Made by a program: the position numbers and the translations under genes. Positions 9,426 to 27,344 of a stretch of DNA of 64,000 nucleotides are shown piece after piece. Within the stretch, counting starts at the first letter, position 1. Each line of letters begins with the position of its first letter. The notes below the pieces were generated by a model. That model was not told the DNA's origin, ran no database searches, and saw only the letters and a program-made list of their open reading frames with translations. The stretch is from Microbacterium sp. SORGH_AS_0969 (GTDB lineage: Bacteria > Actinomycetota > Actinomycetes > Actinomycetales > Microbacteriaceae): assembly GCF_030818255.1 (NCBI RefSeq), contig NZ_JAUTAG010000001.1, forward strand, positions 2,232,001 to 2,296,000. The letters run 5' to 3'.

Positions 9426-9491
9426 TGATTTATTCGAGTAGCGGTGTACCGGCTCTACTTCTCGGACAGGTTAGCTGTCTTACTCGAACAA
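9426..9491. repeat. Dispersed site, copy 2, with inverted ends
   Basis: This is the same core as at 1056 and 27304, followed after about 17 variable bases by CTTACTCGAACAA (9479-9491), which is an inverted partner of TTATTCGAGTA (9430-9440). It lies directly upstream of the double-HTH gene. The conservation covers non-coding positions, which suggests a protein-binding or recombination site rather than coding constraint. Confidence 0.72.
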
Positions 9492-10057
9492 GTGCCGGGC
9501 CTAGATGTCGCAGCGACACGTCTCCGGCTCCTCCCTCGTTGGATGTCCGTCTCATCCTTCGGGTGAGCTTGCGCGAGGGCTACTCAGATCGTCCAGCCCA
9601 GAGGCGTGCTTGAGCGTGAGTATGGTCAGCGCAGTCTGGGTGGTCCAGACAACGCCCTAACTCGGAAGCGGCGGTCCTCGAGGGTGCTCAACGGCGCGCG
9701 CATTTTGCTGGTTCCGGTGTGTCGATAGTCGCGATGGTGGTGGGCGCTTCTGTTCCTGCCGAGGCGACGAGCTTCCCGGTGCCGGCTTCAGCTGCGCAGG
9801 CCGAAAAGCAGCCATCGCTTTCGTCAGAGCCAACACCCAATGTGGACTCTTCGGTACCGGAGAGTGAGTTCGATCCCCTCACCGACGAGCCCGTCACGCC
9901 CAAGCCTGTCTCGACGGTGGCGCCATCGCACCTGTGTCGACGTCGTTCGCGTCGAGGCAAGATCGACCACGACATTCTCGAGGCGCGAGTAGGCCTAACG
10001 ACAAGTCTGATTGTTCATCAGCGTAGTACGCGGTCCCGACCTCAAGCGGCGTGATCA
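9492..10057. other. 566-bp gap, possibly holding a relic of a secreted protein
   Basis: No complete gene is recognised. A plus-strand frame from GTG 9719 to 10054 begins with a hydrophobic stretch resembling a signal peptide (GSGVSIVAMVVGASVPAEA), followed by a Ser/Pro/Glu-rich linker (SLSSEPTPNVDSSVPESE). It has no ribosome-binding site and ends in low-quality sequence. It may be the 5' end of a broken secreted or wall-associated protein. Confidence 0.3.
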
Positions 10058-10798
10058 TCACCAGATGGGGCGTCGTTGTGTGTCGATTCGTTGCTTGCGG
10101 GGGTATCGGAGCAGCCGGACCAGGTTTCCGATCGCGATGAAGGTGAAGACGACGCCAGTGAGATAGAACCAGGGGGTGTTGAACACCTCGGGCAGGGCGA
10201 GGACGAACATTCCGGTGGGGAGGAAGGTGTTGATCGTGCCGAAGACGATCACGATCCCCAGCCCCACGCTGGTGCCATCCCGGGAGCCGCGCCGCGCCCA
10301 CAGAACGCCGGGGCCGGCAGCCATGACGACGTTGGTGAGCGCGAACCACTGGAGTACGCTGCCTTCGCCCATGAACACGATGAGCAGGTTCACCACCGCG
10401 TAGAACCCGGCGAGTTGAACCAGCAGGTTCAAAACCGCCTGGCGGATGGTGACTCGATCGCCGAAGTACGGGCCCCAGATCTCGACCCGTTCCAGGGTGA
10501 CGGCCTTCCAAAGGTTGAAGATCTCGAATCCGGTCCACACGAACAGCGCGATCGACGCGACGGTGAGGAACCAGTTCCAGTTGTGTGCTGCGGCGGCGCT
10601 CAGCAGGATCACTGCCCAGGAGCTGTCGTGGGCAAGGTAGAAGGTGTGCATCCAGATCGGGAACGGGGCCTTCTTCTCCCGCGTCACCAGCCGGAAGCTA
10701 TACAGGTACTCCCAGTAACCAAACGCGAAAGTGAGCCCCGCCGCGATCAGGAGAGGGATGTTGTCGAGAGTGAAGGCAGCGATGAGCTGGTCGTACAT
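10058..10798 (-). CDS. Multi-pass membrane protein of unknown function
   Basis: The 246-residue protein has about seven hydrophobic segments (for example IPLLIAAGLTFAFGYW, AVILLSAAAA, FLTVASIALFVW, AVLNLLVQLAGFYAVVNLLIV, VGLGIVIVFGTINTFL, TGVVFTFIAIGNLV). Conserved-looking polar motifs are YWEYLYSFRLVTREK after the first helix and WMHTFYLAHD. A Trp-Glu-X-X-Tyr-Ser motif near the membrane also occurs in integral-membrane terpene cyclases, but the resemblance is too weak for a call. It lies downstream of the epoxide-hydrolase-like gene and ferredoxin reductase on the same strand, so it may be part of the island pathway as a carrier or membrane enzyme. Confidence 0.6.
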   Translation of the reverse strand: MYDQLIAAFTLDNIPLLIAAGLTFAFGYWEYLYSFRLVTREKKAPFPIWMHTFYLAHDSSWAVILLSAAAAHNWNWFLTVASIALFVWTGFEIFNLWKAVTLERVEIWGPYFGDRVTIRQAVLNLLVQLAGFYAVVNLLIVFMGEGSVLQWFALTNVVMAAGPGVLWARRGSRDGTSVGLGIVIVFGTINTFLPTGMFVLALPEVFNTPWFYLTGVVFTFIAIGNLVRLLRYPRKQRIDTQRRPIW

Positions 10799-10854
10799 GG
10801 TGGGTTTCCTCTCTGGCTGCGCGAGCGGGACGCCTCATTGGAGAGGTCGGGCAG

Positions 10855-10897
10855 CCCCCCCCCGGGGGGGGGGGGGGGGGGGGGGGGGGGGGGGGGG
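10855..10897. repeat. Homopolymer C9-G34 tract
   Basis: Nine C residues are followed by 34 consecutive G residues, about 57-100 bases upstream of the membrane-protein start at 10798. The tract is self-complementary at its C/G junction and can form a G-quadruplex. It could be a real length-variable switch or a sequencing/assembly artefact. Confidence 0.9.
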
Positions 10898-10998
10898 CAT
10901 CGGCGGAGGTCATGCGCGCGGAAGCTTTTGCTCGTTCTGAGATCTCGCCCGCGGGTCGAAAAGCCGCGTCAGCGCGTCCTGCCGGCCAGGACGGTTGC

Positions 10999-26093: not shown

Positions 26094-26139
26094 CATGTTC
26101 TCCATTCATCTTCGAACGGGGTCGCCGACGGCGACCCAA

Positions 26140-26799
26140 CTAGGCCTGATGGATCAGGTCATCCAGGGGAGTGATCCCGGCGTCAGACGTCAGCCACCAG
26201 TGCGGGGCGACGGTGTTGAAGACGCGCAGGAACGTGCGCGGGTTCCGGTCCTCGACGTAGCGGAGCCAACTGGTCAGCACCCCAACGAACAAGTGGGCGA
26301 AACCATTGGCAGCCGCCTCTGCGAAGAATTCAGGGTCGACATCTGCTGGCGGGGCGTCTCCACCGTTCCACGTATCTAACCCGAGAGTCTTCTGACTGAG
26401 GATCACCGAATCGTGCACATGCCTGATCAGCATCGAGGTCACGCCCGGCGCTTTATCGAACAGAAGCGCCGGGGCGTACACCGCTTCCCGGTGGACGACA
26501 TGCCCGACCACCTTCATCAAGGTCGCTTCGAACTGCAGTCGCCGCGCGAGCGGATCCCGGATATCCCCGCGAAGTCCCGCGTCGCGCAGGTCGTCCAGTT
26601 CGGAACGGAGCGCTTCCTCCAACAGAGCTTCAGGTGAGGGGGAGTGCCGATAGAACGTCGCTCTTCCCACTCCCGCGCGTGATGCCACGTCGGTGATCTT
26701 CACGTCTCTGATCGGCGTCGACGCAGCTGCTTCCAGCACGGCCGTATGCAGACGGGCACGAGATTTCGCCTGGCGAGCATCTCCCTCGAATTCACCCAT
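26140..26799 (-). CDS. TetR-family transcriptional regulator
   Basis: The 219-residue protein has an N-terminal TetR HTH at about residues 33-55 (VKITDVASRAGVGRATFYRH) and a helical ligand-binding domain with no close match I can name. It is transcribed with the downstream zinc alcohol dehydrogenase. A near-perfect dyad overlaps its start codon, which suggests autoregulation. Confidence 0.86.
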   Translation of the reverse strand: MGEFEGDARQAKSRARLHTAVLEAAASTPIRDVKITDVASRAGVGRATFYRHSPSPEALLEEALRSELDDLRDAGLRGDIRDPLARRLQFEATLMKVVGHVVHREAVYAPALLFDKAPGVTSMLIRHVHDSVILSQKTLGLDTWNGGDAPPADVDPEFFAEAAANGFAHLFVGVLTSWLRYVEDRNPRTFLRVFNTVAPHWWLTSDAGITPLDDLIHQA

Positions 26800-26815
26800 G
26801 ATACAAGTGTCTCAT
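26798..26815. promoter_or_regulatory. Candidate TetR operator at the regulator start
   Basis: ATGATACA and TGTCTCAT are arranged as inverted half-sites around two central bases (seven of eight positions match). The dyad overlaps the TetR start codon and its immediate upstream bases, the usual place for an autoregulatory operator. Confidence 0.5.
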
Positions 26816-26894
26816 AAATGGCTCACGAGAAGGAGGAAATTCAGGCTGGGCAACACCGTGGCGGGAAGCTCTTGTAACGCCGGGGCGAGTCACA

Positions 26895-27344
26895 TCATTT
26901 GTGGCTACCGCCGCGCGGTCGCAGTTGGACTCCCTCCCCAATGAGTCGCTGCCGTACGTTGTTGTAGCTGGTGCCGAGGCGAGACGCGATAGTGGCGATC
27001 GGATGGCCGTGTTCGTACAGCGTTCGTGCGACCTCGACCTGGTCGCTTGTGAGCGGTTGACGTCGCAGTGTTGCTCCCTCGTCTCGAAGCAAGCGAAGAA
27101 TGCCGGTCTTTGACAGGCCGTAGGTCTCACACAGACTCGGAGTCGTTGCGCCCGACTCGTACTCGGCGACGATTCGCTTGATCTGTGCCGGTTCGAGACG
27201 TCGGCGCAGTGATCGACTCACCTGCTCTCCTGGGGTAGCGGAGAAAGGCGAATTTGGCGCCAGATCAGCCAGTTTCTGCAGTTCCACAAGAGGTGGCGGT
27301 AGTAGCGCGGATTTATCCGAGTAGCGGTGTACCGGCTCTACCAA
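26895..27344 (-). CDS. Double helix-turn-helix protein (dispersed copy B)
   Basis: This is the paralogue of the protein at 9015-9425, with two HTH units (AQIKRIVAEYESGATTPSLC to LLRDEGA, and LTSDQVEVARTLYEHG to NVRQRLIGEGV) and the tail RPRGGSHK. The start is unclear. TTG 27344 would include the conserved LLPPPLVELQKLAD segment; GTG 27221 has a good GGAGAG Shine-Dalgarno and would give 108 residues. The frame remains open far upstream but there overlaps another gene and is not coding. No recombinase neighbour exists. Its position at the island edge suggests a role in, or a history of, DNA rearrangement. Confidence 0.62.
   Translation of the reverse strand: MVEPVHRYSDKSALLPPPLVELQKLADLAPNSPFSATPGEQVSRSLRRRLEPAQIKRIVAEYESGATTPSLCETYGLSKTGILRLLRDEGATLRRQPLTSDQVEVARTLYEHGHPIATIASRLGTSYNNVRQRLIGEGVQLRPRGGSHK
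27304..27341. repeat. Dispersed site, copy 3, right island border
   Basis: AGCGCGGATTTATCC and the core match copy 1 base for base up to CTCTAC. Homology stops at 27341, so the right half with the inverted CTTACTCGAACAA arm found in copies 1 and 2 is missing. Host-like sequence with an orphan terminator begins immediately after it. Confidence 0.72.

Follow-up and report, generated by a model that had tools for sequence, protein, structure and literature searches.

We describe a gene module within a 64,000-nucleotide stretch of the genome of Microbacterium sp. SORGH_AS_0969, a bacterium of soil (hereafter the window; the genome is a single contig of 3.94 Mb). The module occupies window positions 9459–27341 (17.9 kb) and is a real, discrete island, encoding a complete class I cytochrome P450 system alongside regulators, putative catabolic enzymes and a small protein with an HtaA domain. 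Judged from its sequence, it is very probably mobile. Our preferred interpretation, to which we give somewhat better than even weight, is that of a mobile catabolic module, in which the P450 would start a route ending in pyruvate and the HtaA-domain protein would handle haem for the P450. Catabolism to pyruvate is a plausible part of this interpretation, while the substrate and the order of the steps are guesses. A specialist would find the HtaA link and the module architecture to be the new parts.

The core of the island is a plus-strand run extending from 13046 to 24847. It opens with the P450 (422 amino acids, 13046–14314), a [2Fe-2S] ferredoxin of the putidaredoxin type (14311–14625, with a CX5CX2C motif and a fourth cysteine) and the single HtaA/CR-domain protein (162 amino acids, GTG start, 14622–15110), followed by a LysR regulator (15107–16078), a PF04199 cyclase-family hydrolase (16075–17055), a SnoaL_4 protein (17137–17700), a zinc-dependent alcohol dehydrogenase of the medium-chain dehydrogenase/reductase type (ADH1, ADH_zinc_N, 17697–18833), an HpcH/HpaI-family aldolase (18879–19655), a pyruvate carboxylase (1150 amino acids, 19741–23193) and an aldehyde dehydrogenase (Aldedh, 23453–24847). 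On the minus strand, the left part encodes the FAD-dependent ferredoxin reductase (Pyr_redox_2 and Reductase_C, 11563–12807, with a proposed GTG start at 12807 in an open frame reaching 13017), a SnoaL_2 protein of the NTF2 fold (11046–11516) and a seven-helix membrane protein (10058–10798); the right part encodes a second zinc-dependent alcohol dehydrogenase (ADH2, ADH_zinc_N, 25002–26105), a TetR regulator (26140–26799) and a helix-turn-helix (HTH) protein of about 135 amino acids (26895–27305).

An earlier note on this DNA, made from the letters alone, had named most of these genes. All of those it named are indeed present, at or near the positions it gave, each above the Pfam curated cut-off, and P450, ferredoxin and reductase are encoded together as it had proposed. 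Its description of the genes as nearly all overlapping by ATGA or GTGA was overstated: five of the nine junctions between the P450 and aldehyde dehydrogenase genes are 4-nt start/stop overlaps (four ATGA, one GTGA), and the remaining four are gaps of 81, 45, 85 and 259 nt. In G+C content the island (65.1%) is lower than both the module before it (68.7%) and the right flank (70.1%). The whole genome holds two matches to the P450 family and two to the carboxylase domain of pyruvate carboxylase; since the second of the latter lies outside the island, the island copy is an extra one.

Stacked modules at a tRNA-Met gene

Direct repeats bound the island. A 76-bp stretch at 9383–9458 recurs at 27266–27341 with 88% identity, including an exact 23-bp core, whose plus-strand copies form the left boundary (9436–9458, common to modules 3 and 4 of the array described below) and the right boundary (27319–27341). 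The earlier note had placed the island at 9426–27341, nearly coinciding with this pair without mentioning it, and its claim of a discrete island was borne out; the modular build had escaped it, and it made no remark on the implications of the HtaA protein. The core has three exact copies in the genome, and a genome-wide search allowing up to three mismatches located three sites (1071, 9436 and 27319), all in the window and in one orientation; a reversed-pattern control gave zero matches in the genome. At 9436 and 27319 the repeat sits at the 5′ end of a gene that runs leftward and encodes the HTH protein of about 135 amino acids, of which the genome has four copies; the product of the right-most (26895–27305) is 57% identical to that of 9015–9425. 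At 1071, the repeat is separated from its HTH gene by an insertion carrying an HTH_Tnp_1 protein. This insertion, which we take to be of the IS3 type, comprises a transposase-like pair at 2–1005 in the 5′ part of the HTH gene of module 2, with the HTH_Tnp_1 match (Pfam) at 700–1005.

A more diverged repeat lies at genome position 2226104, beside the first HTH gene, with a tRNA-Met gene (2222755–2222829) to its left. The sequence following the 3′ end of this tRNA is of the same kind as that following the inner repeats. Immediately after the right-most repeat there is a terminator-like hairpin (plus strand, 27353–27391; arms 27353–27369 and 27371–27387, then a T-rich stretch). Taken together, the repeat positions, the tRNA-Met on the left and the hairpin on the right indicate that four modules separate the tRNA gene from a terminator. 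Their sizes, by subtraction, are approximately 3.3, 7.0, 8.4 and 17.9 kb, and each carries an HTH gene and an att-type repeat at its right end. The P450 island is the last of the four, in an array that spans genome positions 2222755–2259341 and thus reaches window position 27341. The module preceding it (module 3, plus strand, 1094–9458) encodes a hydrolase, an AMP-ligase, a DUF3556 protein, an FAD oxidoreductase, a PucR-type regulator, an EamA protein and, on the minus strand, the HTH protein at 9015–9425. The array has the features of a tRNA-anchored tandem island: a tRNA 3′ end, direct repeats and a relative that has the site without the array. An integrase of its own was not detected, as neither tyrosine (PF00589) nor serine (PF00239) recombinases had a match inside genome positions 2222830–2259341. 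Elsewhere in the genome, PF00589 matches lie at 1.96 and 3.16 Mb, and PF00239 matches at 1.12, 1.13 and 2.61 Mb.

Comparison across a genome set with one genome per species supports movement of the modules. In another species (G023), one contig (C251) matches window positions 10894–27168 at 99.87% identity, and a second (C54) starts with positions 27172–27341 at 100% and continues into the start of another module instead of the terminator. A candidate degradation route is in this way common to two species of the genus as a single unit. The best match in G023 to the 2-kb chromosomal right flank is partial, at about 72%; this assembly, in roughly 500 contigs, is 83% complete and could therefore lack the flanks. 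In the relative lacking the array (G843), a tRNA-Thr/tRNA-Met pair is directly followed by a hairpin and right-flank sequence. Identity there is 88% in the left flank through the end of the tRNA-Met, and 88% in the right flank from window position 28137 on. Positions 27342–28136, including a DUF1349 gene, are also without a match in G843, which therefore does not reproduce the empty site exactly.

The HTH gene was found in 27 of the 295 genus genomes searched, our own included, and the repeat motif (with up to three mismatches) in loci of seven genomes (G000, G009, G018, G023, G024, G1046 and G1050). A hairpin follows the last repeat observed in G000, G018, G024 and G1050 (read by eye in the last three), and none follows the last one observed in G1046. 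A tRNA-Met gene lies to the left of the array in G024 and G1046 as well. Arrays like the one at tRNA-Met were also observed in G024, G1046, G009 and G1050. The cargo of other modules includes genes for major facilitator superfamily (MFS), GrpB, KAP-NTPase, FRG-domain and flavoprotein reductase proteins. We also considered whether the direct repeats might be inert leftovers, with the four modules making up a decayed integrative element of the ordinary kind, a view to which the missing recombinase match in the array lends some weight. However, the same module with the same end is followed by a different module in another genome, and genomes whose modules have similar ends carry different cargo; we regard this explanation as unlikely. 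The exact module ends make it possible to look out for an excised form.

A CR-domain protein in the P450 operon

The HtaA-domain protein is the most novel element of the island. It is of a haem-binding type that has not commonly been associated with P450-type enzymes. Its family membership is supported by both profile and fold: PF04213 scores 60.4 bits against a cut-off of 24 (on a longer frame from 14562), and the 15 structures matching its AlphaFold model at E ≤ 0.001 are all HtaA, HtaB or ChtA, with 6jsa, 8smu, 9o0k and 6jsb among them (the model has a predicted local distance difference test score, pLDDT, of 87.2 and a predicted template modelling score of 0.82). CR domains are reported to contact haem through an axial tyrosine and a serine in helix 1, a tyrosine near the end and a helper histidine or tyrosine (PMC12494546). 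The corresponding residues of the window protein are Y17 (axial), S13, Y132 and Y61 (helper). In an alignment of 14 relatives, Y17 and Y132 occur throughout and S13 in 13 (glycine in L020), and the helper position is occupied by histidine in nine, tyrosine in four (the window protein included) and phenylalanine in one. The protein is thus a predicted haem binder in which the CR contact residues are largely conserved. Its frame starts close to the CR fold, overlapping the ferredoxin stop codon, and the predicted protein has no evident export signal or anchor.

We next asked how often this protein accompanies related P450 systems, using 47 loci with a related P450 taken from named genomes. Twenty-two of these (L018–L039) form the P450 family of the window copy, defined by a near full-length P450 at ≥40% identity, the usual criterion for a P450 family; L018 is the same island. 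HtaA was detected in 12 of the 22. In each of these 12, a P450, ferredoxin or reductase gene either overlaps the HtaA frame (measured between stop codons) or is no more than 70 nt away from it. In L032 the near gene is the reductase, with the P450 5 kb away. The sequences behind the HtaA profile used here include the window and seven of the 12 positive loci; L018 is identical to the window, and L019, L020, L035 and L037 are independent. None of the 25 more distant P450 loci (L040–L064) carries HtaA, a confounded control since these are mostly from Proteobacteria. In a further set of 20 P450 loci, on stretches of 13–19 kb from relatives in the genus and order, two carry it: L181, where some 8 kb separate it from the P450, and L183.

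Two observations do not sit well with a role purely in haem supply to P450s. On the Rhodococcus rhodochrous plasmid pGD02.2.2 (L069, 6862–9441), the gene for a short HtaA protein comes straight after those for an annotated ring-hydroxylating dioxygenase alpha subunit and a reductase of the VanB family, that is, beside a Rieske-type oxygenase. In addition, around the copy on an Arthrobacter plasmid, neither the 8 kb upstream nor the 3.4 kb of downstream sequence covered contains an annotated oxygenase. The HtaA gene also overlaps regulator genes: LysR in the window, GntR in Citricoccus, LysR in G027 and TetR in R. rhodochrous. Rather than serving the P450, the protein could accordingly sense haem or a ligand on behalf of the regulator encoded next to it, or be an accessory common to oxygenase operons in general. 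We give this possibility a weight not far short of even; what counts against it is the close spacing to P450-system genes in all 12 positive loci of the P450 family.

The publications found to use the term “HtaA domain” showed no P450 or catabolic-operon topic in their titles or abstract openings; one mentions both the domain and P450, treating them separately in the portion available (PMC10060970). We more tentatively suggest a broader idea, which we think doubtful: that a cytosolic single-CR haem protein works as a dedicated and so far unrecognised partner of class I P450 chains in actinobacteria, acting in haem delivery or haem-gated control, and that it travels on integrase-less, HTH-tagged modules stacked at tRNA-Met like a cassette array and moved by a recombinase in trans. 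To our knowledge, how bacterial P450s acquire haem is largely an open question, and a small haem-binding-type protein within P450 operons would make it directly testable.

A putative route to pyruvate

The solved structures nearest to the P450 are CYP125, CYP142, CYP126, CYP124 and P450terp. Hydroxylases of steroid side chains and of terpenes are among these, which suggests that the substrate is hydrophobic and either branched or alicyclic. Homologues numbered 395 at E ≤ 1e-60 among 8000 proteins scored. Across 28 aligned members of the group, identity to the window copy ranges from 45 to 80% and the cysteine at position 362 is invariant. Members of the group are found in Streptomyces, Nocardia and Actinocorallia as well, and some homologues bear the source name cholest-4-en-3-one 26-monooxygenase. 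This name and the nearest structures could point to a modified form of an established steroid or terpenoid route with CYP125/142- or P450terp-like hydroxylation. We consider this rather improbable: the best 20 matches among 1300 plasmid records are 31–35% identical, and the module proteins scanned with Pfam included neither a thiolase nor an acyl-CoA dehydrogenase nor a ring-cleavage oxygenase.

From the gene families we propose the following scheme. Induction would proceed through LysR or TetR, and the P450, with its own ferredoxin and reductase, would hydroxylate a hydrophobic, probably alicyclic or branched substrate. ADH1 could oxidise the resulting alcohol, SnoaL_4 (with very weak similarity to LinA and scytalone dehydratase, E 0.0072 to 0.37) might dehydrate or isomerise, and the cyclase-family hydrolase may open a ring, lactone or 1,3-dicarbonyl. 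The aldolase would then cleave the resulting hydroxy-keto acid to pyruvate and an aldehyde, the latter being processed by the aldehyde dehydrogenase (which among NCBIfam models scores best with those for succinate-semialdehyde dehydrogenases, without reaching their cut-offs) and ADH2 (best models of the mycothiol/NDMA type, also below cut-offs). Pyruvate carboxylase (NCBIfam equivalog score 1672 bits against a cut-off of 965) would convert pyruvate to oxaloacetate, and the HtaA-domain protein would bind haem in the cytosol and supply or buffer it for the P450. A route of this general kind has a published precedent in lumichrome catabolism, where a P450-started sequence continues through hydrolysis, hydration and retro-aldol cleavage to pyruvate (PMC12746152).

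For the aldolase, superfamily membership is clear (PF03328, 119.7 against 25 bits), and the motif columns EHG, VR[VI]LEN, E[TS] and D[LF] are kept in all six aligned homologues; we take their histidine, arginine, glutamate and aspartate to be the functional positions of the HpcH/HpaI superfamily. The protein falls below the cut-off of the HpaI equivalog TIGR02311 (4-hydroxy-2-oxoheptanedioate aldolase; 121.5 against 368.8 bits), and the note's term “HpaI-type” is therefore a family statement only.

The gene set recurs most fully in Microbacterium sp. 5K110 (L035), with nine collinear homologues at 42–86% identity in the order reductase, P450, ferredoxin, HtaA, LysR, cyclase, SnoaL_4, ADH1 and aldolase, followed by another LysR, an MFS transporter, a short-chain dehydrogenase/reductase and a reversed aldehyde dehydrogenase. 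The earlier note had suggested searching for co-occurrence of the set from P450 to aldolase: among the loci compared, the full set was found only in L018 and 5K110, with subsets elsewhere. A five-component core (P450, ferredoxin, reductase, HtaA and aldolase) is present in four of the 22 family loci (L018, L019, L020 and L035). In Advenella and in a Brucella sp., P450, ferredoxin and alcohol dehydrogenase occur together, with an aldolase on the same stretch, and a Citricoccus plasmid combines a P450 (26%), reductase, ferredoxin, aldolase-family protein, HtaA and aldehyde dehydrogenase. Parts of the set also occur without this P450: cyclase (58%), LysR and an HpcH/HpaI aldolase (37%) adjoin in G403, and a cyclase (54%) lies within 4 kb of an annotated aldolase/citrate-lyase protein in Microbacterium sp. 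No. 7, described as a polypropylene-glycol degrader. In Rhodococcus sp. DMU1, aldolase (46%) and pyruvate carboxylase (70%) are about 2 kb apart and, together with an alcohol dehydrogenase, within 8 kb, which fits pyruvate as the product.

Several results weigh against the proposed scheme. The aldolase of this family occurs in six of the 22 stretches (L018, L019, L020, L029, L030 and L035; its profile was built from these six loci, and tblastn agrees) and the cyclase in three (L018, L026 and L035). The set is thus not fixed, and the P450 group may serve several pathways. Pyruvate carboxylase was not found on the 5K110 stretch compared, the window aldolase had no match at E ≤ 1e-6 to the aldolase-family protein of Microbacterium sp. 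No. 7, the TIGR02311 score is low as noted above, and the module proteins scanned with Pfam yielded neither a CoA ligase nor a known transporter. The island might instead tailor or detoxify a natural product, with pyruvate carboxylase and aldehyde dehydrogenase as passengers. The missing carboxylase in 5K110, the four gaps of 45–259 nt in the gene run and the presence of the P450 group in Streptomyces, Nocardia and Actinocorallia would fit such a role. Yet Pfam detected no polyketide synthase, non-ribosomal peptide synthetase or terpene synthase among the proteins scanned in 9459–27341, and the proximity of aldolase and pyruvate carboxylase in Rhodococcus sp. DMU1 shows that the two lie near each other elsewhere too; we hold this alternative to be improbable.

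Two of the loci from genus and order relatives deserve mention. L181 (G031, 149–15853) is a parallel island with a 29% identical P450, SnoaL_4, cyclase, AMP-ligase, reductase, aldehyde dehydrogenase and short HtaA (about 29–41% identity). L183 (G027:C22:177000-196000) holds at 8482–11607 (plus strand) a 1041-amino-acid frame joining P450, Pyr_redox_2 and flavodoxin in one chain, divergent from LysR and short HtaA genes and beside an HpaI-family aldolase, FAA hydrolases, an extradiol-type protein and an aldehyde dehydrogenase. We know of no such three-part fusion, and fusion terms gave no literature match in titles or abstract openings.

The seven-helix membrane protein (246 amino acids, minus strand), missing from the earlier note and without a Pfam family, has 73 relatives including itself at E ≤ 1e-5, with Y31, H51, D58, E92 and E103 invariant in 36 aligned. 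Its AlphaFold2 model (pLDDT 95.4) has a weakly SWEET/cystinosin-like helix arrangement. Nearby, at 10855–10897, a C run is followed by about 34 G; the G023 contig breaks at 10894, and this stretch may thus be a sequencing or assembly trouble spot.

Comparison with known systems

The earlier note did not recognise the gene combination as a characterised pathway. Our literature searches on the gene set, on P450 with HtaA and on strain names agree, with no matching pathway among the results listed from a body of literature that mostly leaves out subscription journals. Nocardioides simplex lumichrome (riboflavin) catabolism resembles the proposed route in its early P450, subsequent hydrolysis and retro-aldol step to pyruvate. 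It differs in using a single-chain P450 with redox domains, amidases, a thiamin-dependent decarboxylase, and Rieske and extradiol dioxygenases, none of which is among the island proteins scanned (PMC12746152). Class I systems such as CYP125/CYP142 and P450terp likewise combine a P450, a putidaredoxin-like ferredoxin and an FAD reductase, whereas the island has its own P450 group and different downstream enzymes.

The Corynebacterium HtaA and ChtA CR domains share with the window protein their fold and, largely conserved, the axial tyrosine, the propionate serine and tyrosine and the helper histidine or tyrosine. Those proteins are secreted or surface-located, unlike the putative haem binder described here, a single domain without an evident signal or anchor inside a P450 redox operon (PMC12494546).

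Finally, the Dehalococcoides islands stacked in tandem at ssrA carry cargo for vinyl chloride respiration, each with a 20-bp direct repeat, and 15 islands without an integration module are discussed as possibly cis-mobilizable (PMC3146451). In the array described here the anchor is tRNA-Met, each module closes with a small HTH gene next to the repeat, and no match to a recombinase family lies within. Both arrangements pair catabolic cargo with tandem islands downstream of one RNA gene, bounded by direct repeats, and the ssrA islands are the nearest described arrangement that we found.

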